48,285 nucleotides of DNA from Flavobacteriales bacterium. Its GTDB lineage: Bacteria > Bacteroidota > Bacteroidia > Flavobacteriales > Flavobacteriaceae. The notes under the pieces were generated by a model. That model did not search any database. It had not been told where the DNA came from and saw only the letters and a list, made by a program, of their open reading frames with translations. Positions 5,738 to 46,351 of the stretch are shown piece after piece (the first letter of the stretch is position 1; every line of letters starts with the position of its first letter). A program made the position numbers and the translations under genes. Location of the stretch: contig SGZB01000005.1 in NCBI GenBank assembly GCA_004321735.1, forward strand, positions 1 through 48,285. Direction: 5' to 3'.

Positions 5738-6307
5738 CTATTTGTTCATTGCACCAAGCATAGCTTCATACTTAGCATTTAATTCTTTAACAGTATTTTT
5801 CATTTTTTGGAACTCATCACCAAGTCCCTCAGGCATATTAACGGTTTCGAATGCATCGACAGTTTCTTTTAAATTATGAAGAACCTTGGCAACCTCTTGG
5901 ATATTTGATGATGCAGATGATAAACCTTTATTGAAATCATTTGCATTTTTTTCCATATCAACGGGAACTTTAATAGTTGCTGTTACTTTAGAAGCATTTG
6001 AAATATTTGAGTTTAATTCATTAAGACCCTTCACAGTTCCATCTACTGCTTTTTGTAATGCAGCCGTCTCAACTGCAATTGTACTAACAGCATCTTCTTC
6101 TTCATCTTTTTTCCCTAATAAAAAACCTTGAATTCCTGAAAGGGCAAATATACCTGCTTCAACGGATAGACCAACTATAAGCCAAGTATTGGCTGAAAAT
6201 ATTAATGAGCCGTTTATAATTTTTAGTAATGCACCAATGATTACAACACCCGCGCCCAAACCGAATAATAATTCAAATACGTTATCTGGTAATAATTGTT
6301 TTTTCAT
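5738..6307 (-). CDS. gldL: Gliding motility / type IX secretion motor protein GldL
   Basis: GldL is the cytoplasmic-membrane partner of GldM in the proton-driven type IX secretion motor. The 189-residue protein has two transmembrane helices in its first 65 residues (about 10-30 and 38-62: FGLGAGVVIIGALLKIING, LIVGLSVEAGIFALSGIQGF), the GldL topology. A long cytoplasmic coiled-coil region follows (about 75-189). A conserved Glu sits in the second helix (SVEAGIFAL), where the proposed proton-path residue lies in characterised GldL proteins. It is eight bases from gldK and four from gldM. Confidence 0.95.
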   Translation of the reverse strand: MKKQLLPDNVFELLFGLGAGVVIIGALLKIINGSLIFSANTWLIVGLSVEAGIFALSGIQGFLLGKKDEEEDAVSTIAVETAALQKAVDGTVKGLNELNSNISNASKVTATIKVPVDMEKNANDFNKGLSSASSNIQEVAKVLHNLKETVDAFETVNMPEGLGDEFQKMKNTVKELNAKYEAMLGAMNK

Positions 6308-6315
6308 AATTTTTT

Positions 6316-7722
6316 TTAAAATATTTTATTTGGATTTTCTTGAAAACCTACATCCTCTCCGAGATAACTCTGAACAGTTCTGAATCCAATGTACGATCTT
6401 TTCTTATTTTGATATTCGTAGTCTCTTGTTGATACTTTGAGAAAATGAGCAACATCTTTCCACGATCCTCCTCTGACTACTTTTTTGTTATTATTTTCTG
6501 ATCCTTCAACATTAGGATTTAGACCAGCTACAAAGTCGTTTGCTCCTTTTTCATAATTTGAATCAGTCCACTCTGCAACATTTCCTGACATATTATATAA
6601 TCCATAATCATTTGGCCAGTATGATTCTGCCTCAGCGGTATATAGAATCTGATCTGCAGCATAATCGCCTCTTTCTGGTTTAAAATTTGCTAAGAAACAA
6701 CCTTTTTCATCATAAGTATAAGGGCCTCCCCAAGGATACTCAGCTCTTTCGATACCTCCTCTTGCAGCATACTCCCATTCAGCTTCAGTTGGTAAACGAT
6801 ATCTGCTATCTAATTGTATATTTTTTCTCTGTTTTCTATTGTGTTGATTTTTATAAAAAGTCCTCCAATGAGCAAAAGCCTTAGCTTGTTCCCAAGAGAC
6901 ACCGACTACAGGATAATCAGCATAAGCATCGTGCCAGAAATAGTCGTTATGCATTGGCTCATTATAACTATATTCAAAATCTTTGTACCATACAGTTGTG
7001 TCCGGATAAATTTCTATAGATTGATATTCACTCCATTTATTTTTCTCTATATCAAACTCTCTAAAAGCGTATTTAATACGTTTTGTTTTAAAAGCCCTTA
7101 ATCCGTTTGGAGTACTATCTGCAGGAATAAAGAAGCCTTCATAATCTTCGAGTAAATCAGGACCAATACCACCTTCCAAAACTGCAGCGTAATTAGCATC
7201 TAAATAATCACTTCTATCCCAAGCAATTTTATTCTTCCAGTTAAGTTTGTAAGTAGACTTGTTTTCAATATCTAAAATACCTAATCCGTTTTCTTCAAGA
7301 TATAATTGATATGCAGATTTTTCTTCCCCGTCATCAACTCTATTGTAAATAGGCATAAATTCCCTAAGGGGATCATCCTCATTAATATCCTCTCCAATTT
7401 TAAAATATGCTGCCTTTGCAAGCTCATACCTAACAACAGAATCTCTTACCCAATTAACAAACTGTCTGTATTCACTGTTAGTGATTTCAGTTTCATCCAT
7501 GTAAAATGCTTTTATAGAAACAGTTTTTAGAGTTGGATTTTGATCTAATGCTGCATTTGGATTTGAGGGACCCATAGTGTAAGATCCTGATGGGATAAGA
7601 ACCATACCTTGGGGCTTGTTTGGAAAAAATTTATTTGTCTTTAATCCAACAAGCTCACCCCTGTCACTTTTAGAACATGCAGTTATTAAAAAAAATATAA
7701 TAATTAGAGTAAATCTTTTCAC
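6316..7722 (-). CDS. gldK: Gliding motility lipoprotein GldK (FGE-sulfatase domain)
   Basis: GldK is the outer-membrane lipoprotein that builds, with GldN, the ring of the type IX secretion system. From the chosen start the 468-residue protein reads MKRFTLIIIFFLITACSKSD, an ideal lipoprotein signal with Cys17. The mature part begins DRGELVGLKTNKFFPNKPQGM and carries a formylglycine-generating-enzyme-like fold (IPSGSYTMG, YRLPTEAEWEYAARGG, GNVAEWTDS, RGGSWKD, IGFRTV). I chose GTG at 7722; the frame can extend to a TTG at 7743, but that adds residues ahead of the signal and there is no in-frame ATG. A near -7 box (AATTTTTG) lies just upstream at 7739-7746. Confidence 0.94.
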   Translation of the reverse strand: MKRFTLIIIFFLITACSKSDRGELVGLKTNKFFPNKPQGMVLIPSGSYTMGPSNPNAALDQNPTLKTVSIKAFYMDETEITNSEYRQFVNWVRDSVVRYELAKAAYFKIGEDINEDDPLREFMPIYNRVDDGEEKSAYQLYLEENGLGILDIENKSTYKLNWKNKIAWDRSDYLDANYAAVLEGGIGPDLLEDYEGFFIPADSTPNGLRAFKTKRIKYAFREFDIEKNKWSEYQSIEIYPDTTVWYKDFEYSYNEPMHNDYFWHDAYADYPVVGVSWEQAKAFAHWRTFYKNQHNRKQRKNIQLDSRYRLPTEAEWEYAARGGIERAEYPWGGPYTYDEKGCFLANFKPERGDYAADQILYTAEAESYWPNDYGLYNMSGNVAEWTDSNYEKGANDFVAGLNPNVEGSENNNKKVVRGGSWKDVAHFLKVSTRDYEYQNKKRSYIGFRTVQSYLGEDVGFQENPNKIF

Positions 7723-38851: not shown

Positions 38852-39322
38852 TTATCTTGATATTGAAATAATTTCGAATTTAATAACTCCGTTAGGAACA
38901 GAAATTTCCGTTATATCTCCCTTGGTTTTACCCAACAGGCCTTTTCCAATAGGTGAGTTTACAGAAATTTTACCTTCTCTTAAATTAGCTTCACTTTCAG
39001 CAACTAATTGGTACTCAAGTTCCATATTATTAATCAAATTCTTGATTTTAACTTTCGATAAGACAAGTATTTTTGAAGAATCTAACTGAGATTCATCAAT
39101 CAATCTTGCATTCGCTAGAGTTTCTTCGAGTTTAGAAATTTTTAACTCAAGAAGACCTTGCGCCTCTTTAGCTGCATCATACTCAGCATTCTCGCTTAAA
39201 TCACCTTTATCTCTAGCCTCTGCAATAGCTTTTGAAGCCAAGGGTCTCTCAACATCTTTAAGCTGATTAAGCTCACCTCTGAGGTTTTTTAAACCTTCTT
39301 TTGTGTAATATGAAAAACTCAT
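38852..39322 (-). CDS. greA: Transcription elongation factor GreA
   Basis: GreA rescues backtracked RNA polymerase by stimulating transcript cleavage. The 156-residue protein has the N-terminal coiled coil with the acidic tip in DKGDLSENAEYDAAKEAQGL and the C-terminal FKBP-like domain (YQLVAESEANLREGKISVNS, SPIGKGLLGKTKGDITEISV). I chose ATG at 39322 (MSFSYYTKEGLKNLRGE); upstream in-frame codons would run through the leader hairpin. First gene of its operon. Confidence 0.96.
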   Translation of the reverse strand: MSFSYYTKEGLKNLRGELNQLKDVERPLASKAIAEARDKGDLSENAEYDAAKEAQGLLELKISKLEETLANARLIDESQLDSSKILVLSKVKIKNLINNMELEYQLVAESEANLREGKISVNSPIGKGLLGKTKGDITEISVPNGVIKFEIISISR

Positions 39323-39331
39323 AATATATAG

Positions 39332-39356
39332 AAAAAAAAAGTCCTTCTGAAGGACT
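39332..39356 (-). promoter_or_regulatory. Palindromic hairpin plus T9 tract in the greA leader
   Basis: The perfect palindrome GTCCTTCAGAAGGAC (minus strand, 39355-39341) forms at least six pairs (plus an outer A-T) with a CAG loop and is followed at once by nine Ts (39340-39332), then 9 more bases to the ATG triplet region at 39322. It looks like an intrinsic terminator or attenuator placed between the greA promoter and its coding region. Confidence 0.7.
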
Positions 39357-39359
39357 AAA

Positions 39360-39367
39360 CAAATATA
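39360..39367 (-). promoter_or_regulatory. -7 box of greA
   Basis: On the minus strand TATATTTG fits TAnnTTTG exactly. It ends only four bases before the leader palindrome, so the transcript should begin at or inside the hairpin. No clear -33 TTG. Confidence 0.55.
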
Positions 39368-39406
39368 CAAATTTTAAAAAAATCAGCATTTTTAGTAATT
39401 TAAGAT

Positions 39407-39832
39407 ATGATTAAAAGAATAAGTTTAATCTTATTTATCTTTTTATTTAATTTTTGTGAAAAACAAGATGAAAATATAAATCCATTTATCCCAGATGTAA
39501 GTTTTGAAAAAACTATAAACCTTAGCCTACCAAACTATGACAACTTAAATTATAATGGAGGATCTTACTTCTTACAAAATGTTGGAGTAAAAGGAGTTAT
39601 CCTATTTAATTTAAATAATTCAATCTTAGCTTGGGAAGCTAGTTGTCCAAATGAAAAACCATCTAATTGCTCAACAATGGAAATTCAAGGACTACAAGCA
39701 GAATGTCAATGTAATTTTAATCTATACAGTTTAGCAAATGGTCAACCTTTAAAAATAAACACAAGTAATTCTTATCCAATGGTAGCTTATTTTACACAAA
39801 AAAGCGGCAACTCATTGAGAATATACAACTGA
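39407..39832 (+). CDS. Rieske-like lipoprotein with incomplete cluster ligands
   Basis: The 141-residue protein has a lipoprotein-type N-terminus (MIKRISLILFIFLFNFCEKQ, Cys17). The mature part resembles the small Rieske-type proteins often found in flavobacteria: GVKGVILFNLNNSILAWEAS, then SCPNEKPSNCSTMEIQGLQA and ECQCNFNLYSLANGQPL. A true Rieske centre needs CxH and CxxH/CPCH-type pairs; here the second motif is CQCN and the first CPN, so both His ligands are missing. It therefore probably binds no 2Fe-2S cluster. Its 3' end carries the terminator of the convergent receptor gene. Confidence 0.65.
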   Translation: MIKRISLILFIFLFNFCEKQDENINPFIPDVSFEKTINLSLPNYDNLNYNGGSYFLQNVGVKGVILFNLNNSILAWEASCPNEKPSNCSTMEIQGLQAECQCNFNLYSLANGQPLKINTSNSYPMVAYFTQKSGNSLRIYN

Positions 39833-39842
39833 GTTACCGCTT
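39798..39842 (-). terminator. Terminator of the His-rich receptor gene, inside the convergent gene's end
   Basis: On the minus strand AAGCGG-T-AACTCA (39842-39830) pairs with TGAGTT-G-CCGCTT (39814-39802) across a 15-base loop and a single mismatch, then a T6 tract (39803-39798). It lies 23 bases after the receptor stop and overlaps the last codons and stop of the opposite lipoprotein gene. Confidence 0.75.
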
Positions 39843-39864
39843 ATTAATAATACTAAACTAAAAC

Positions 39865-41967
39865 TTAAAACTGATAGTTAATTCCTACTGAAATGTTTCT
39901 ACCCATTTCATGAATTCCCATAGTTTTTAATCTTGACATGTGATCGAAATAAAGCTTATCTGTTAAGTTATTTATCGACCATCCTATCTTTAAATCATTT
40001 GATAAAAACTCTACATCATATGTACCAGAAAGATTTAAAAGAAAATAAGAATCTGTTTTTGTTTCAAATTGTGCAACATTTTCCTTTTTTCCTTTTAAAA
40101 CTGCCTCTAATTCAAACGAACTATTATTAAATTCCAAATTAAAAGATTGTTTTAATGAAAGTGGAGCAATAAAAGGTAGAACATCACTATTTGATTTTTC
40201 ACCTCTTAAAAACTCTAAAGAAGTTTCATATGATAACCAATCTAAAGAAGATTGTCTGTTATAATACAACTCTCCACCAAAAATATTTGCATCATCTTGA
40301 ACGTAACTATAAACAGGAAATTCATCCATTTCTTCACCAGTAGGGTTTAAATAAATATAATCTTTAAGTGAATTCGCAAATAAATCAAATCCAAATTCAG
40401 AATTTGAACCAAATGTTGAAATTGAGAAGTCTATTTGACTACTTTTTTCTTCACTTAAATTTTGATTACCAACATAGTACCTCGAAGTTCCATGATGAAC
40501 TCCGTCTGCAAATAGTTCAGAAAGATTAGGAGCTCTATATCCTGAAGAAAAATTAAGTCTAAGTATACCTGAATTACCTAAATCGGTTTTTAAACCTAAT
40601 GAAGTAGTTAAACTATTGTATGTTTCATCAAACTGACTTTTCTGAATTCTTCTATAATCTGTTCTCAATCCAATCATTAAATCCCATACTTTTCCATGGA
40701 AATGAGCAAGACCAAATAAACCAAAATCATTTTTAGAAGCATCAGGCAATAATTCTTCTTCACCATAATTTATATTGTCTTGAAACTGTAAAGATGATCC
40801 AAAAACAAATTCAGTTTTCTCAGAGCTAGAAATTAAATATTTCAAATCTATGCTTGTGTTTTTTAATTCAGCAGCTAAGTGGGCACCTTCACCATCGTGA
40901 TCATCATGATCTTCATCATGATCTTCATCATGATCATCATCACCATGATCGTCGTCATCTCCGTGATCATCATGATCATCATGCTCTTCGCCATGTCCGC
41001 CAAATTCTTTTCTATCATTTATTGTGTGACCTACTGTGATTTCAAGCTCAGATTTATTATTAAAAATAAAAGTATTTTTCCATGAAATTAGAGTGTTCTC
41101 AAGAGCCTGAAACTCTGGTTCCTCATCTTCATGATCTTCATCATGATCCTCATCATGATCGTCATCATCTTCGTGGTCATCATCTCCATGCTCATCGTGA
41201 TCATCATGCTCTTCACCGTGAGGAATTCCAATATTAGTTTCAGAGTAATTTAACCTTAACTCAGAAATGAATTTGTCTGAACTGTAACCAAGTGCAGCTT
41301 TAAAGTCAGTGTTTTCAAAAAAAGTATTTTCAACTTCTCCTTCAGGTGTACTAAAGTTTCCATTATCTACATAACTTCCTTGAACTATGTAGTTAATTCC
41401 ACCAACAGATCCTTTTAAACCAAGGTTATTAGTAAAACCATTAAAATTAGAGTTAAATAAACTACCAAACTCAACTTGGGGATTACCATCAATAAAACTA
41501 TCAGGTGAAACATAGATAACACCTCCAATCGCATCACTACCATAAAGCACTGACATTGGACCTTTTATAACTTCGACAGATTGAGTTCCAAAGGGGTTAA
41601 TTTCAATACCATGTTCTTCACCCCATTGTCCATTCTCAAATCTTATATTTTGTGTAAATGTTACAACTCTGTTTCCAGAAAGACCTCTAATTACAGGTTT
41701 TAAAATTCCTGGACCAGTAGTAATTGCTGATAATCCAGGAATTTTATCAAATGATAAAACAGGATTATTTGATAAATTGATATCATTCAATGAAAGTTTA
41801 TTAACTCTCATTACGTTATTTTTAAGTGATTCTTTAAAGGGAGTTGATACTACAACTTCCTGTAGACTCACAGGTATAATTGTATCTTTTTCAACTTCTT
41901 GAGAAAAAGATTGATTTGTATTAAGTGTAAATAGTATAACAAGTATACTTAGTATATATTTTTTCAT
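39865..41967 (-). CDS. TonB-dependent receptor with two His/Asp-rich insertions (probable metal receptor)
   Basis: The 700-residue outer-membrane receptor has a signal peptide (MKKYILSILVILFTLNTNQS), a TonB-box-like PVSLQEVVVSTPF, a plug domain (ILKPVIRGLSGNRVVTFTQN, GVIYVS) and a 22-strand-type barrel ending GRNISVGINYQF. Two insertions, at about residues 249-283 and 323-363, are almost only His, Asp and Glu (for example HGEEHDDHDEHGDDDHEDDD). ZnuD-type zinc receptors carry similar His/Asp loops, so zinc or another divalent metal is the likely substrate. It is 38 bases downstream of a small Cys/His protein. The insertions are encoded by imperfect CATGATC-type repeats. Confidence 0.88.
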   Translation of the reverse strand: MKKYILSILVILFTLNTNQSFSQEVEKDTIIPVSLQEVVVSTPFKESLKNNVMRVNKLSLNDINLSNNPVLSFDKIPGLSAITTGPGILKPVIRGLSGNRVVTFTQNIRFENGQWGEEHGIEINPFGTQSVEVIKGPMSVLYGSDAIGGVIYVSPDSFIDGNPQVEFGSLFNSNFNGFTNNLGLKGSVGGINYIVQGSYVDNGNFSTPEGEVENTFFENTDFKAALGYSSDKFISELRLNYSETNIGIPHGEEHDDHDEHGDDDHEDDDDHDEDHDEDHEDEEPEFQALENTLISWKNTFIFNNKSELEITVGHTINDRKEFGGHGEEHDDHDDHGDDDDHGDDDHDEDHDEDHDDHDGEGAHLAAELKNTSIDLKYLISSSEKTEFVFGSSLQFQDNINYGEEELLPDASKNDFGLFGLAHFHGKVWDLMIGLRTDYRRIQKSQFDETYNSLTTSLGLKTDLGNSGILRLNFSSGYRAPNLSELFADGVHHGTSRYYVGNQNLSEEKSSQIDFSISTFGSNSEFGFDLFANSLKDYIYLNPTGEEMDEFPVYSYVQDDANIFGGELYYNRQSSLDWLSYETSLEFLRGEKSNSDVLPFIAPLSLKQSFNLEFNNSSFELEAVLKGKKENVAQFETKTDSYFLLNLSGTYDVEFLSNDLKIGWSINNLTDKLYFDHMSRLKTMGIHEMGRNISVGINYQF
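40880..41219. repeat. Two low-complexity GATCATGATG-type repeat tracts inside the receptor gene
   Basis: Tracts at about 40885-40995 and 41124-41215 are built from imperfect repeats of CATCATGATC and TTCATCATGATC. They encode the His/Asp-rich loops of the receptor. The two tracts resemble each other, so they may have arisen by copying and could change length by slippage or recombination. Confidence 0.8.
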
Positions 41968-42005
41968 TTTTAATTAATTTGATTTTTAGTAATAAAGTTT
42001 GTTTG

Positions 42006-42308
42006 CTACACTACTGTAGGTGGACCTCTATTACTTTTAAAATCAAGATTAATTTTTATGAAATTTATGTAGAATTGAGTTTCTTCTTTTTTCGGGTGTG
42101 TATTAGTTTTTTGAATGACTGTACATTCTTCAGCATAGTCAAACTCATTAATTAAAAAATCACAAGTTAAGCAGTCATATTCATGTTCATGAAAATGTAA
42201 CGAGGACTCATTACATACTTTATGATTACCATCAAGCACATGTGTTATGCCATAAATTGTCGGTAATAATACTACTAGATTAAGAAATAATGCAATTAAT
42301 TTAATCAC
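42006..42308 (-). CDS. Small Cys/His-rich envelope protein ending RGPP (GTG start)
   Basis: The 100-residue protein has an N-terminal hydrophobic segment (about 3-25), then potential metal ligands: His23, His29, Cys32, HFHEH (38-42), CLTC (46-49) and Cys62. It ends NRGPPTVV. The layout (membrane segment, His cluster, CxxC, C-terminal R-x-PP) recalls DUF2946-type proteins of metal loci, but homology is not proven. It lies between two TonB receptor genes (17 and 38 bases), so it is probably co-expressed with them. The start is GTG at 42308; no ATG is in frame. Export and metal binding are inferences. Confidence 0.7.
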   Translation of the reverse strand: MIKLIALFLNLVVLLPTIYGITHVLDGNHKVCNESSLHFHEHEYDCLTCDFLINEFDYAEECTVIQKTNTHPKKEETQFYINFIKINLDFKSNRGPPTVV

Positions 42309-42312
42309 TAAT

Positions 42313-42320
42313 CAAATATA
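42313..42320 (-). promoter_or_regulatory. -7-like box before the small Cys/His protein
   Basis: On the minus strand TATATTTG fits TAnnTTTG exactly, between the upstream receptor stop and the GTG start, with only 4 bases left. If it is used, the transcript would be leaderless; it may be chance in A/T-rich sequence. Confidence 0.3.
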
Positions 42321-42325
42321 TGAAT

Positions 42326-44479
42326 TTAGAATCTTAACTGAATACCTGCTAAAAAATTTCTTGTTGCTTGAGGATAGTACCCTGTTCCCTCGATAGTTGT
42401 GACTCTGTTAGGATCAGACCAGGTATCATCATATGTGTAGTAATAACCATTGGAAACATACTCAACATTAAAAACATTATTAACTAATAATGAGAATGTA
42501 ATAGAATCAAACACATAAGTATTATCGAATGCATGTGAGAAATTCAAATCATTAACAAAGTAACTATTCAATAAAGAAAATTCAGAATCAGTATTTGACA
42601 TATATTGTTTACCAACATACTTTGACAGTAATGATAAACTTGAATTATCACTAATAGCATATATTAATGCATTGGAAGCCACAAAATCTGGTGAAAAAGA
42701 AATATTTGTGTTACCAAAATCAACTAATTGTCCATTAAAATTTGATATAATAGATTTATTTTTATTTGAACTGAATGATAAGCTTGTGTTAAGATCAAAT
42801 AAATTATTAATTGAATAAAAAGATTCAATTTCTAGTCCTAATCGATGACTTGAACCGCTATTATTTCTTATAGGATTTCCAACATCATCAAGTGTACCAG
42901 TCAAAACTAACTGATCATTGTAGATCATTAAATATGAATTAACATTCAATGTTATGTTTTCATTTCTGTATCTCCAACCAATTTCAAAATCATCAAGCTG
43001 TTCAGATTTTACGTTATTATTGTTTTCATAATCAGTTCTGTTGGGTTCCCTGTTTGCTCTTGAGTAAGATGAATACAGAATTGAATTGGAATTTAATTTA
43101 TAAGAAACTCCAAATTTTGGATTGAAAAAATTATGTTTTTTGTTTAATAACATTTCAATTAAATCAGAAGTAGTTCCACTAGTTGTATATTTTACATTCC
43201 GAAATTGTAGATCACCAAATAATTCAAAATTATTGATCGAATAAACAACTTTAGTAAAAAAACTTAAGTCATTTTTTTTACCATTTCCATTATAATATCG
43301 ATCTCTAATTTTTCCATCTGCACTAAAAGTTCTAGCCCATATCACTTCACCAAAATGATCTCCATCATAATCACTAAAAGAACCATTGAAAATAAAATCT
43401 AGATTATCACTCTTATAGTTAGTTGAAAAATTCAATACATAAAAATCATTATCTAACCATCTTCTACGTATAATATCGGTTGTACCTAATATATTTCCAT
43501 TAGAATCTAAGTCAGAACCTACGATACCGCTATAACCGTCAACTGAATCATCTTCTCTGTACTGCTCAAAATAACCTCTTCCGTCAGTATAATTTAGACT
43601 TAGATTGGTTGACCAATTATCATCAATAGTTTCGTTCCAATGCAACTGAAAATGATCCTGCTTATAATTATCAATCTCGTTTTCGTAAGTATAGGGATTT
43701 TGTCTTCTGTTCTCTTTTATCTGATCACTTGTTACACCAAACCAAGCTTGATATCCTCTTTCATGACCTCCAAAAGTTAATGCTTTAATTAATGTATTTT
43801 CATCACTATATGATCCTTGAATAAAATAAGATTTTAAGTCGGAAAAGGCTCTGTCAACATATCCATCAGAGTTTATTTTGGACAATCTACCACTTAATTC
43901 AAAATTATTGATCAAACCAGTACTGAACTTAATCGTATTTTTAAAAGTATTATAACTTCCAAATGAGCTTGAAATCTCCGTAAATGGATTCTCACTAAAG
44001 CTATCTGTTAGAATATTAATACTAGCACCAAAAGCCCCTGAGCCATTTGTTGATGTTCCAACTCCTCTCTGTAATTGCAAACTTTCAACTGATGAAGAAA
44101 AATCAGGTAAATTCACCCAGTATGTACCATGAGATTCTGCATCATTAAATGGAATTCCGTTTATTGTAATGTTTGTGGCTTGAGGACTTACTCCTCGAAC
44201 TCTTATTCCAGTATATCCAATTCCAGCACCGGCGTCAGAAGTTGTAACAACAGATGGGAGATATTTGAGCAAAATTGGTAAATCTTGACCTAAATTTCTT
44301 TTTTCATATTGTTCTCTTTTTACATTTGAAAATGTAATAGGTGATGAAAATTTCGCCCTTAAAGCCTTAACAATAACTTCGTTTAAGTTTTGTGGAGTAC
44401 CCTGAAGGGTATCCATAGTTTGTTGTTGTGAAAATGATAGATTTGATATAATAAATACCGTTAATAATAATTTCTTCAT
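42326..44479 (-). CDS. TonB-dependent receptor under TPP riboswitch control (probable thiamine receptor)
   Basis: The 717-residue outer-membrane receptor has a signal peptide (MKKLLLTVFIISNLSFSQQQ), a TonB-box-like stretch (LNEVIVKALRA), a plug domain (AGIGYTGIRVRGVSPQATNI, TINGIPFNDAESHGTYWVN, LQRGVGTSTNGSGAFGASIN) and a C-terminal barrel ending in ATRNFLAGIQLRF. It has no carboxypeptidase-like N-terminal domain, unlike SusC proteins. A TPP riboswitch covers its leader, so it most likely imports thiamine or a thiamine precursor. PnuC-like and kinase genes lie directly upstream and fit the same job. Confidence 0.9.
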   Translation of the reverse strand: MKKLLLTVFIISNLSFSQQQTMDTLQGTPQNLNEVIVKALRAKFSSPITFSNVKREQYEKRNLGQDLPILLKYLPSVVTTSDAGAGIGYTGIRVRGVSPQATNITINGIPFNDAESHGTYWVNLPDFSSSVESLQLQRGVGTSTNGSGAFGASINILTDSFSENPFTEISSSFGSYNTFKNTIKFSTGLINNFELSGRLSKINSDGYVDRAFSDLKSYFIQGSYSDENTLIKALTFGGHERGYQAWFGVTSDQIKENRRQNPYTYENEIDNYKQDHFQLHWNETIDDNWSTNLSLNYTDGRGYFEQYREDDSVDGYSGIVGSDLDSNGNILGTTDIIRRRWLDNDFYVLNFSTNYKSDNLDFIFNGSFSDYDGDHFGEVIWARTFSADGKIRDRYYNGNGKKNDLSFFTKVVYSINNFELFGDLQFRNVKYTTSGTTSDLIEMLLNKKHNFFNPKFGVSYKLNSNSILYSSYSRANREPNRTDYENNNNVKSEQLDDFEIGWRYRNENITLNVNSYLMIYNDQLVLTGTLDDVGNPIRNNSGSSHRLGLEIESFYSINNLFDLNTSLSFSSNKNKSIISNFNGQLVDFGNTNISFSPDFVASNALIYAISDNSSLSLLSKYVGKQYMSNTDSEFSLLNSYFVNDLNFSHAFDNTYVFDSITFSLLVNNVFNVEYVSNGYYYTYDDTWSDPNRVTTIEGTGYYPQATRNFLAGIQLRF

Positions 44480-44511
44480 AAAATTTAATTAACGAGATTC
44501 TATAGTTGAGT

Positions 44512-44581
44512 AGCATTATCCCTTACAAAAATTACTTTGTCAGGTTCAATGGGTATAATCTCAGCCTTAGCACCCCAATTA
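44512..44581 (-). promoter_or_regulatory. TPP (thiamine) riboswitch, THI element
   Basis: On the minus strand the aptamer core is clear in order: GGGGTGC (from 44576), CTGAGAT (44564-44558), TACCC (44555-44551), TGAACCTGA (44548-44540), a P5 helix CAAA/TTTTG around GTAAT, and AAGGGA (to 44519). These are the invariant parts of the TPP aptamer. The P3 arm is minimal. The 5' edge overlaps the TAA stop of the kinase gene (44581-44579). About 35 bases separate it from the receptor ATG; AATCTC (44499-44494) there can pair with the aptamer's GAGATT and may form part of the switch. Confidence 0.92.
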
Positions 44582-45145
44582 GATTACAATATTAATTAAT
44601 TTATCAATAATTTCAATTGACTTTAACTTTCTTTCTAAAAAAGAGCCATTAATTAAATTATATGTTTTATTGTGTTTTTCTAATGTTTTTTTAAAATATT
44701 CAAAGATTTCTTTTCTCTCATTTGGCTTATCTCTTAAATCATCCTTTACCCATGGAATATCCACATCCATCAGAAGATATAGATCGTATTTGTTTTTTAT
44801 AGCATATTCATTAATTAGATGATCACATTTATCGAAGTATATTTCAGAGTATATTTTAGTAGTCAGTAAATCTGTATCACAAAAAAGAATTGAATTACAT
44901 TTTTTTGAGGCTTCATTTTCTAATCTTATTTGACCTTTAGCTATGGAAATCAAATCATCATAGGAACATATTTCTTGATTTAAATCATATTTCTTTTGAA
45001 GATACTCTCTTGCATACTCTTCAACATAAATGGAATTATAATGATCAGCTAATTCTTTTGCAAGAGTTGACTTACCTGTAGATTCAGGACCAAAAAGAAC
45101 AACCTTTATGCAGTTTGAATTTGTTTGTTGTAAAGTTCTTTCCAT
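44579..45145 (-). CDS. Stand-alone NadR-type P-loop kinase (candidate thiamine kinase)
   Basis: The 188-residue protein is a nucleoside-kinase-like ATPase: Walker A GPESTGKSTLAKELADHYNS, EEYAREYLQKKYDLNQ, a Walker B-like LFCDTDLLTTKIYSEIY, and LLMDVDIPWVKDDLRDKPNE with the lid Arg residues. It matches the ribosylnicotinamide kinase domain of NadR but lacks the HTH and adenylyltransferase domains. It overlaps pnuC by 40 bases and its stop codon opens the TPP riboswitch, so I infer that it traps imported thiamine by phosphorylation; nicotinamide riboside is the alternative. Confidence 0.8.
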   Translation of the reverse strand: MERTLQQTNSNCIKVVLFGPESTGKSTLAKELADHYNSIYVEEYAREYLQKKYDLNQEICSYDDLISIAKGQIRLENEASKKCNSILFCDTDLLTTKIYSEIYFDKCDHLINEYAIKNKYDLYLLMDVDIPWVKDDLRDKPNERKEIFEYFKKTLEKHNKTYNLINGSFLERKLKSIEIIDKLINIVI

Positions 45146-45735
45146 TTTATGTATCCAGCAATAGCAATTATTGTAAATATAAAATATTGAATACTAGTAA
45201 ATGCTAAACCTTTATGTAAATAAAGAGGGACTGAAATTATATTACCAACTATCCAAAAAATCCAACTTTCAACTTTTCTCTTTGCCATTAACCACATTGC
45301 TGCGAAAAATATTGCTGTCGTCAAGATATCAATATATGAAACAATGGTTTCCCATTTGTCAAAAAATGTATACACTAAAGAAACAAAAACAGAAGATGAA
45401 ATAAACAATAAAACAACTATTCTGATATCAGAATTAGAAACTTTTGAGATTGGAGATACAGTATTATTTGTCCCTTTAAGCCAAAAATACCAACCATAAA
45501 TACTCATAATAAAGTAATAAGCATTTATAATCATATCACCCAATAGTGACCACTTAAGTAGTAGGTATACAAAGATTGAGGTATTAATCATACCTGTTGG
45601 AAATACTAGAATGTTATTGTTTTTTGAAAACCAGACTGAAAGGAAACCAAAAAAAACTGCAATAATTTCTAAACTAATATCAATATTAGAATATTGCGAA
45701 TATTGAAAAAATAATTGATCAAGAAAGTCCATCAT
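45106..45735 (-). CDS. PnuC-family vitamin transporter (probable thiamine carrier, PnuT-like)
   Basis: PnuC proteins are inner-membrane facilitators for nicotinamide riboside, and relatives (PnuT) carry thiamine; a cytoplasmic kinase traps the substrate. The 209-residue protein has about seven helices and the family's YGWYFWLKG (W-x-x-W type) motif, plus ALWLMAKRKVESWIFWIVGN with conserved Trp residues. Start is ATG at 45735 or 45732 (two adjacent ATGs). It overlaps the phosphopantetheinyl transferase by 17 bases and the kinase by 40. Next to a TPP riboswitch and receptor, thiamine is the likely substrate. Confidence 0.87.
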   Translation of the reverse strand: MMDFLDQLFFQYSQYSNIDISLEIIAVFFGFLSVWFSKNNNILVFPTGMINTSIFVYLLLKWSLLGDMIINAYYFIMSIYGWYFWLKGTNNTVSPISKVSNSDIRIVVLLFISSSVFVSLVYTFFDKWETIVSYIDILTTAIFFAAMWLMAKRKVESWIFWIVGNIISVPLYLHKGLAFTSIQYFIFTIIAIAGYIKWKELYNKQIQTA

Positions 45736-46351
45736 CAATAAAAACTTTAGAACAAATATATTCTTTGTTTATTTGAAATTTACATATAAGATTGGTTATC
45801 GATCCGTCAATATCAACATAAGCATTTGCTAAATTATTTTTAATATCAATTGTTGAGATAAAAATTTGATCTTTAAAATTAATTCCAGGATATTGACATA
45901 ATTTATAAATAGCTTCTTTCAAAGTCCAAATCAAGGTTATGTCAGAAATATTTTCCATACTTATATTTTTTATATCTGTTTGATTTAAAAACTTATGTTT
46001 AATATTTAGTATCTGTTTTCTTTTTGTTTCTATGTCTACTCCACATGATTGATTTGACAAAAGCAGTGTGACATAATTTTTACAATGACTAATTGAAATA
46101 AATTTTCCAGATTTTAATTTTGGTGCCCCAAATTCATTATAAGAAAGATCATTTGGGTCTAATTTACATAACCTAAGAAGTAATCTTGAGCATAAAAACT
46201 CAAGTGCTTTTTTAGAATTCTTTCTTTTTGCAAGAATTTCTAACTCATAGTTTGTGAGATTAAGCTTTGAACGAAAGAAATTAATATCCTCAGAACAATG
46301 CCAAATTAAGTGAGTATATAATGAATCGTCAGATGAATATGAAAGTGGCAT
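45719..46351 (-). CDS. 4'-phosphopantetheinyl transferase
   Basis: This enzyme moves the phosphopantetheine arm of CoA onto carrier proteins. The 210-residue protein is of the Sfp/HetI-like long type with motifs LCSRLLLRLCKLDPNDLSYN, GAPKLKSGKFISISHCKNYV, the Mg-binding GVDIETKR, and WTLKEAIYKLCQ (WxxKEAxxK). All core residues are present. It leads the run with pnuC (17-base overlap) and the kinase. The operon link to vitamin uptake may be only positional; a similar gene order with pnuC occurs in other flavobacteria, from memory. Confidence 0.9.
   Translation of the reverse strand: MPLSYSSDDSLYTHLIWHCSEDINFFRSKLNLTNYELEILAKRKNSKKALEFLCSRLLLRLCKLDPNDLSYNEFGAPKLKSGKFISISHCKNYVTLLLSNQSCGVDIETKRKQILNIKHKFLNQTDIKNISMENISDITLIWTLKEAIYKLCQYPGINFKDQIFISTIDIKNNLANAYVDIDGSITNLICKFQINKEYICSKVFIDDGLS

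Follow-up and report, generated by a model that had tools for sequence, protein, structure and literature searches.

A small flavobacterial reading frame with a C-terminal Arg-Gly-Pro-Pro as a probable arrest peptide and metal sensor for the TonB-dependent receptor that follows it

Metal-responsive arrest peptides are a young class, in which CruR and CutF, both linked to copper, are the best worked-out cases that we met. Published reports show that ribosomes can be arrested by RAPP or RGPP when it lies near the end of a small exported protein (PMC12992588, PMC10951233), a block that has been explained by cryo-EM (PMC10951233). RAPP and RGPP are described as arrest-prone, EF-P-refractory versions that are enriched upstream of TonB-receptor genes, and arrest by CruR has been demonstrated in vitro (PMC12992588). 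CruR itself (Bp2923, DUF2946/PF11162) lies upstream of a TonB receptor in Bordetella pertussis, where its RAPP is reported to be needed for expression and its CXXC for the copper response; the CXXC occupies residues 90-93 and the RAPP residues 139-142, a spacing given as 48 residues, and the gap to the receptor is 162 nt, with control by Rho-dependent termination (PMC9426467). CutF of Rhodobacter capsulatus carries a CxxxC; Cu switches it on, its target is a multicopper oxidase, and a stem-loop covers the ribosome-binding site of the next gene (PMC9973294). DUF2946 is reported to include both CruR (PMC9426467) and CutF (PMC9973294). Bacteroidota account for 40% of the published CutF-like list after normalisation and 19% otherwise, and nickel or cobalt has already been proposed for CutF-like clusters made of His only (PMC9973294); Bacteroidota are also among the groups reported to lack copper-related arrest uORFs (PMC12992588).

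The upstream open reading frame (uORF) considered here lies in a window of 48,285 nt, the whole stretch of DNA that was analysed, at 42006-42308 on the minus strand, as do its parts, the hairpin and the receptor after it. It encodes 100 amino acids from a GTG start to a TAG stop, begins 17 nt after the stop of one TonB receptor (42326-44479), and ends 38 nt before the ATG, at 41967, of a second (39865-41967; 700 aa, Pfam Plug and TonB_dep_Rec_b-barrel), which we propose to be the controlled gene. A sequence-only reading of this DNA had described a small protein with HFHEH, CLTC and a C-terminal RGPP between two TonB receptors, 38 bases before a receptor with His-rich loops, and this is what we found: HFHEH spans residues 38-42, CLTC residues 46-49 and RGPP residues 94-97, and the downstream receptor has His/Asp-rich loops with up to 11 His in 60 residues. 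The single hydrophobic segment of that reading corresponds to an N-terminal helix at codons 2-25 (42234-42305), a predicted export signal or anchor that coincides with hydrophobic alignment columns. This helix is the one confident part of an AlphaFold model with a mean pLDDT of 71.8 and a pTM of 0.31 (mean pLDDT 95 for residues 1-10 and 94 for residues 11-20). The count of at least eight possible metal ligands in 62 residues also holds, with six His and four Cys within residues 23-84 of the translation. The putative metal site is the cluster at codons 23-49 (42162-42242), comprising H23, H29, C32, H38, H40, H42, C46 and C49, and the proposed ribosome arrest site is RGPP at codons 94-97 (42018-42029), three residues before the stop.

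The consensus of the Bacteroidota -7 promoter element is TAnnTTTG, and a weak likeness to it, TATATTTG, is found at 42313-42320. Such an element stands 12 nt before the start in the window and in the relatives L035, L037 and L040, and is weakly enriched across the family (28/103 uORFs vs 195/1259 other ORFs). The GTG start is shared by L035, L036, L037 and L040, and L038 has TTG.

The window protein had no meaningful match in Pfam or NCBIfam up to E=10 and none in a PDB profile search at E<=1, and an Rfam scan of 39000-45000 returned nothing at gathering score. Relatives of the protein were found in 117 of 199 genomes from the same taxonomic family (E<=0.01, own genome counted), and a profile of the uORF family (A1) matched 15 of 23 genomes of the genus and at least 52 of 395 genomes across the phylum, the latter a lower bound because no more than 11 candidates were scored in each genome. 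Among the named carriers are Winogradskyella, Bizionia, Algibacter, Flaviramulus, Tamlana, Lacinutrix and Psychroserpens. Our alignment holds 103 members, the window's included, from 101 sources (100 regions and the window). Gene starts were called mechanically throughout, 23 of the weakest matches of the family search (E 0.00126 and above) were left out, and L125 yielded no ORF under the start-codon rule, though the profile finds a member there. A related set (A3, n=17, mostly from genus g128 of the same family, plus L137 from another family of the order) aligned to A1 with an hhalign probability of 99.3% (E 4e-20) and has RxPP in 17/17; tblastn of plasmids with L137 and with the window protein gave no match. 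The kind of switch is already known, and the flavobacterial uORF family is without a name or a Pfam/NCBIfam model: we found no description of it in the literature searched, where the word stem 'flavobacter' is absent from the main text of PMC12992588, PMC10951233 and PMC10987492 and where the supplementary lists of PMC9973294 and PMC12992588 may contain members.

The strongest feature of the family, ahead of the Cys motif, is RxPP. R94, P96 and P97 are invariant (103/103), with Gly at position 95 in 67 members, Ala in 35 and Asp in one, and exactly three residues follow the motif in 64/103. R[GA]PP occurs in none of the 1259 other ORFs of at least 80 aa called mechanically in the first set of loci. 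The conserved look of the RGPP end had been pointed out from the sequence, and its candidacy as an arrest motif had been missed. Five of the proposed ligands are conserved in at least 90% of the 103 members (H23 in 99, C32 in 98, H38 in 99, H40 in 98 and C46 in 102), as is P16 (102), and two further His columns precede C32 (90/103 and 92/103), of which the window has the second alone (H29, 92). The spacing from C46 to R94 is 46-48 residues in 97/103 members and 47 in the window. Alignments without conserved Cys and His had been named as what would refute the sequence-only reading. Family-wide, H23, C32, H38, H40, C46 and RxPP are kept; the second Cys of the CxxC, C49, is found in 42/103, H42 is not conserved, and the ligands of the window's own genus vary.

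Ligand drift is seen within the window's own genus. All four genus relatives in the alignment, L035-L038, are without C32, L036 and L037 have NFQ in place of HxH, and further genus members show rearranged His-rich stretches, some with a long His-rich run before the CxxC. The CxxC itself is found in 15/15 genus members examined, 47 or 48 residues before the Arg, and all genus members with changed ligands keep both RxPP and the receptor. When members were split by the class of their receptor, a crude division by best-hit identity over 30% to the window receptor in which L099, with a 799-aa receptor, enters the first class via a short match, the alignment columns most tied to receptor class were not the His/Cys ligands.

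Linkage of the family to TonB receptors is close to complete. Every one of the 103 members is followed by an ORF on the same strand, and in 90 of them that ORF is a TonB receptor; 51 of these receptors have over 30% best-hit identity to the window receptor and 39, mostly of about 799 aa, fall below. Among the other 13 members, ten have a lipoprotein of about 180 aa next, of which eight then reach a receptor and two end at contig edges; one, L086, has two family uORFs in tandem (6083-7323) with the receptor after the second; and two have other neighbours, a 136-aa protein and a protein with a weak PepSY_TM match. At the named loci, a same-strand receptor lies within 700 nt in 80/80. As these searches had used the uORF as bait, we also ran the search in reverse, with the receptor as bait and no selection for the motif, looking for an ORF ending in R[GA]PP up to 350 nt upstream. 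Such a uORF was present at 15/16 genus loci, the window included, and at 26 of the best 29 family loci (30 matches listed, 29 plus the window, among 63 genomes matched; the uORF of L271 entered this set as L290). The receptors of L295 and L297 are cut or split at the 5' end, and upstream of those of L309 and L324 there was no uORF in any of three frames. Within the genus, the uORF (15/23 genomes) and the receptor (16/23) occur together, which is not independent evidence because both sit in one locus of incomplete genomes. A receptor tblastn of plasmids gave 14 records, and the three regions inspected list no small same-strand gene directly upstream in a gene table that is incomplete.

Several neighbouring genes deserve mention in their own right. 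The lipoproteins of about 180 aa between uORF and receptor (L042:6874-7419, L048, L052, L054, L079, L093, L109 and L126) mostly carry ..NEEE.. close to the N terminus and HEPT, or something like it, close to the C terminus; His-rich stretches are present in some, and two members scanned had no Pfam match below 0.01. They are possibly outer-membrane metal-binding partners. In the window, 39407-39832 is a small lipoprotein-like ORF with several Cys (CPN..C..CQC), with no NCBIfam match up to E=10 and no Pfam match below 0.01. The receptor upstream of the uORF (42326-44479) has two same-strand neighbours, a NadR-like AAA_28 kinase (44579-45145) and, at 45106-45738, a transporter of the PnuC type for nicotinamide riboside; 42326-45738 is possibly a cluster for nicotinamide riboside uptake that includes an outer-membrane receptor of its own.

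Folding predictions point to an mRNA hairpin that joins the end of the uORF to the start of the receptor. In the window its 5' arm lies within the uORF (42026-42054), the last codons and stop of the uORF form the apical stem (42006-42019), and the 3' arm (41972-41997) ends 4 nt before the receptor ATG; the predicted energy is -22.3 kcal/mol (z -5.05) and none of 200 shuffles was as stable. For the family we used 81 of the 90 members with a receptor directly downstream (gap 20-90 nt; median gap 42 nt), 80 of which entered the footprint/P-site scan. The median cost of opening the receptor start region was 8.57 kcal/mol free and 3.50 kcal/mol with the mRNA held open as far as the leading edge of a ribosome placed on RxPP. 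The median gain was 4.11 kcal/mol, as against 0.43 in shuffles (20 per locus) and 0.16 in 212 native gene pairs (p=8e-28), which were same-strand neighbours taken from these loci, equal in mean GC, with a ribosome placed 15 nt before the stop of the upstream gene. A gain of at least 2 kcal/mol was seen at 61/81 uORF loci and 18/212 native pairs, leaving 20/81 members below 2. In a second set of 63 further loci, taken from the 80 named loci after 17 were skipped as duplicates or for their gap, the median gain was 3.80, with at least 2 kcal/mol in 43/63, a comparison made without native controls.

With the footprint alone blocked, P sites at -9 nt of the first Pro codon or further upstream gave a median gain of at most 0.5; the median was 1.3 with the P site at -6 and stayed near 2.5 between -3 and +6. 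In both sets it climbed from below 0.5 to above 2 as the P site moved from -9 to -3 nt; in the first set it then stayed flat to +6 and was a little lower at +9. RxPP is thus marked out by the hairpin solely as the earliest position at which a stall would help. Of the bases under the ribosome, those between +6 and +15 nt, relative to the first Pro codon, pair most with the start region; pairing was counted up to +15 nt only, and the 5' arm may reach further. Their 3' partners are found for the most part between -6 and -20 relative to the receptor start. The window and its nearest relatives fit the hairpin model less neatly than the family does. The 5' arm of the window hairpin lies mostly upstream of RGPP, and blocking the footprint alone gained only 0.90 kcal/mol, whereas placing the ribosome 6-30 nt upstream of that position gained more than 6; with the 30 nt behind the ribosome kept unpaired as well, for example by a queued ribosome, the opening cost fell from 7.84 to 1.26 kcal/mol. 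The gain was likewise below 1 kcal/mol in the close relatives L035, L036, L037 and L040, and was 6.29 in L038.

Together, these data make it probable, in our judgement, that the uORF is a regulatory arrest peptide, a nascent-chain metal sensor that would control the following TonB receptor, rather than a metallochaperone. The suggestion of a sensor for the receptor, one of the roles offered by the sequence-only reading, was a good lead, with sensing placed in the nascent chain in the reading we favour. In our model, a ribosome translating the uORF would stall at the C-terminal Arg-Gly-Pro-Pro. The hairpin would otherwise hide the receptor start; as long as the stalled ribosome, and any queued behind it, prevent the hairpin from closing, the receptor would be translated. 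At that moment the His/Cys cluster, which precedes the arrest site by about 47 residues, would have just emerged from the ribosome or the translocon; plentiful metal could bind it, and the chain would then fold, pull and release the arrest, upon which the hairpin would re-form and receptor synthesis would stop. The released peptide would probably be degraded, by analogy with what is reported for CutF.

Within this model we lean towards metal turning the receptor off, a sign suggested both by what an uptake receptor is for and by CruR, CutF having the opposite sign. An arrest uORF in which metal instead strengthens the arrest and switches the receptor on, as in CutF, or in which the signal is the status of export or of the TonB system, is less probable but deserves real weight. 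CutF pairs that sign with a start-hiding stem-loop, which the hairpin predicted here resembles, and SecM-type arrest peptides are reported to sense export (PMC9973294). Against these readings, an uptake receptor is normally needed under metal scarcity, and a pure export monitor has no need of a conserved His/Cys cluster.

The hairpin data also bear on whether the arrest might act through Rho-dependent termination, with the hairpin incidental. Among characterised cases upstream of a TonB receptor, CruR comes closest (PMC9426467), and the window's genus shares its CxxC and spacing. The flavobacterial gaps are short, however (median 42 nt vs 162 nt), and the start-hiding hairpin is enriched and recurs in the second set of loci, which together make this reading rather unlikely.

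We consider the other role proposed from the sequence improbable, namely a metallochaperone that acts as a mature protein in the periplasm or membrane; in that reading it would deliver metal to the receptor or receive it from there, with RxPP as a structural or docking motif. The protein is rich in His and Cys, has a hydrophobic N-terminal helix and is nearly always found beside a receptor, all of which such a role would explain. Several findings are harder to reconcile with it. Conservation in the family peaks in a published arrest motif next to the stop, set at a constant distance from the Cys and absent from the 1259 other ORFs; the ligands drift while RxPP stays; and confidence in the model is low beyond the N-terminal helix. 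A chaperone also leaves unexplained the predicted hairpin that couples the end of the uORF to the start of the receptor. Finally, the idea of a chance ORF or an artefact of an AT-rich genome, prompted by the GTG start, the length of 100 aa and the lack of a family model, has virtually no probability left and is refuted by 103 aligned members with fixed motifs and synteny and by recovery from the receptor side; the pattern common to the 103 homologues shows that the uORF is a real gene, beyond chance.

As to which metal would be sensed, we put the chances of zinc at about even, regard copper as a possible though somewhat unlikely ligand, and see iron or heme as possible. Zinc is favoured because the site is rich in His, because the His/Asp-rich receptor resembles ZnuD, and because copper-related arrest uORFs are reported missing from Bacteroidota (PMC12992588). 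Its rating is lowered by the profile scores of the window receptor, which reached 176 bits with the heme-receptor model (TIGR01785) against 135 bits with the ZnuD model (NF038289); the copper model (TIGR01778) gave 71 bits, and all three scores are below the cut-offs, which for ZnuD is 950. The receptor-based evidence for zinc, drawn from sequence likeness, is weak. His content of the uORF did not rise with that of the receptor in 48 pairs (Spearman -0.18, p 0.22; -0.28, p 0.05).

The lead to DUF2946 held in one respect: the architecture agrees with a family reported to include CruR and CutF. Formal membership did not follow, as the window protein had no match to PF11162 (gathering score 23.7 bits) up to E=10, and weak matches at E<=1 were confined to 6/103 family members (best 0.0074) and 4/17 of the A3 set (best 1.4e-4). 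No DUF2946 member above the cut-off was found in the 196 genomes of the order or the plasmid searched. That plasmid, pMOL30, carries L150 (1459-1806), which we take to be a CzcI-like protein from a heavy-metal efflux operon. Like the uORF family, L150 is small, with an N-terminal hydrophobic segment, a His/Cys cluster and a C-terminal RAP/RP stretch, and it has a weak DUF2946 match (E 0.018); unlike the family, it has RAPDRPQW followed by three residues in place of RxPP, possibly a degenerate or different arrest motif. The CzcI model NF045614 matched 2/103 uORF family members (best E 0.001).

Another small Bacteroidota protein with Cys and PP, HYC_CC_PP (NF047658), was considered as the identity of the uORF family and rejected, since hhalign gave 34% over 18 columns of the N-terminal hydrophobic stretch only. 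Its model had no match to the window protein up to E=10, and R-x-P-P was found in 0/10 members examined. HYC_CC_PP itself is present in 46/99 genomes of the same order at E<=0.1, with 32 over the cut-off and none in the window's genome. In most of the ten members examined (L139-L148) a PP or a NAPP-like motif stands close to the C-terminal end, and these proteins may be another leader-peptide class.

The uORF family is common in Flavobacteriaceae, and its His/Cys ligand set is kept next to TonB receptors that are in many cases rich in His. If our reading is true, it could provide a non-copper case of a metal-responsive arrest peptide, explain post-transcriptional control of outer-membrane metal uptake in flavobacteria, and offer more than 100 natural variants with drifting ligands and a fixed arrest motif. 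If zinc is indeed the metal, it would place arrest control of an outer-membrane receptor in a phylum reported to be without copper-related arrest uORFs (PMC12992588).

Set against the described systems, the family shares features with each. Like ApdA, ApdP and the small RAPP/RGPP uORFs of Gram-negatives, its members have the motif near the C terminus and are predicted to be small secretory proteins upstream of genes that include TonB receptors (PMC12992588, PMC10951233, PMC10987492). The published filters for CutF-like proteins were fewer than 150 aa, PP in the last 15 residues, a signal peptide and a same-strand gene within 1000 nt, and the window ORF fits them in size, PP position and neighbour (PMC9973294). 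Like CutF, it combines a signal sequence, a metal motif, a C-terminal Pro-Pro and a stem-loop over the start region of the next gene, the signal, the metal site and the hairpin being predictions here. Like CruR, it is a small ORF with a predicted export signal that heads a TonB-receptor operon and is poorly structured by prediction, and in 15/15 genus members its Cys motif, a CxxC, stands 47-48 residues before a C-terminal RxPP near the stop, close to the 48 of CruR. Unlike CruR, the wider flavobacterial family keeps H23, C32, HxH and C46, often without the second Cys, and its loci have a short gap and a predicted start-hiding hairpin in place of 162 nt and Rho. We tentatively suggest, with somewhat less than even confidence, a flavobacterial family of nascent-chain zinc sensors that would sense through a His/Cys site, act through a start-hiding hairpin, and join the metal-released arrest of CruR to the stem-loop of CutF.
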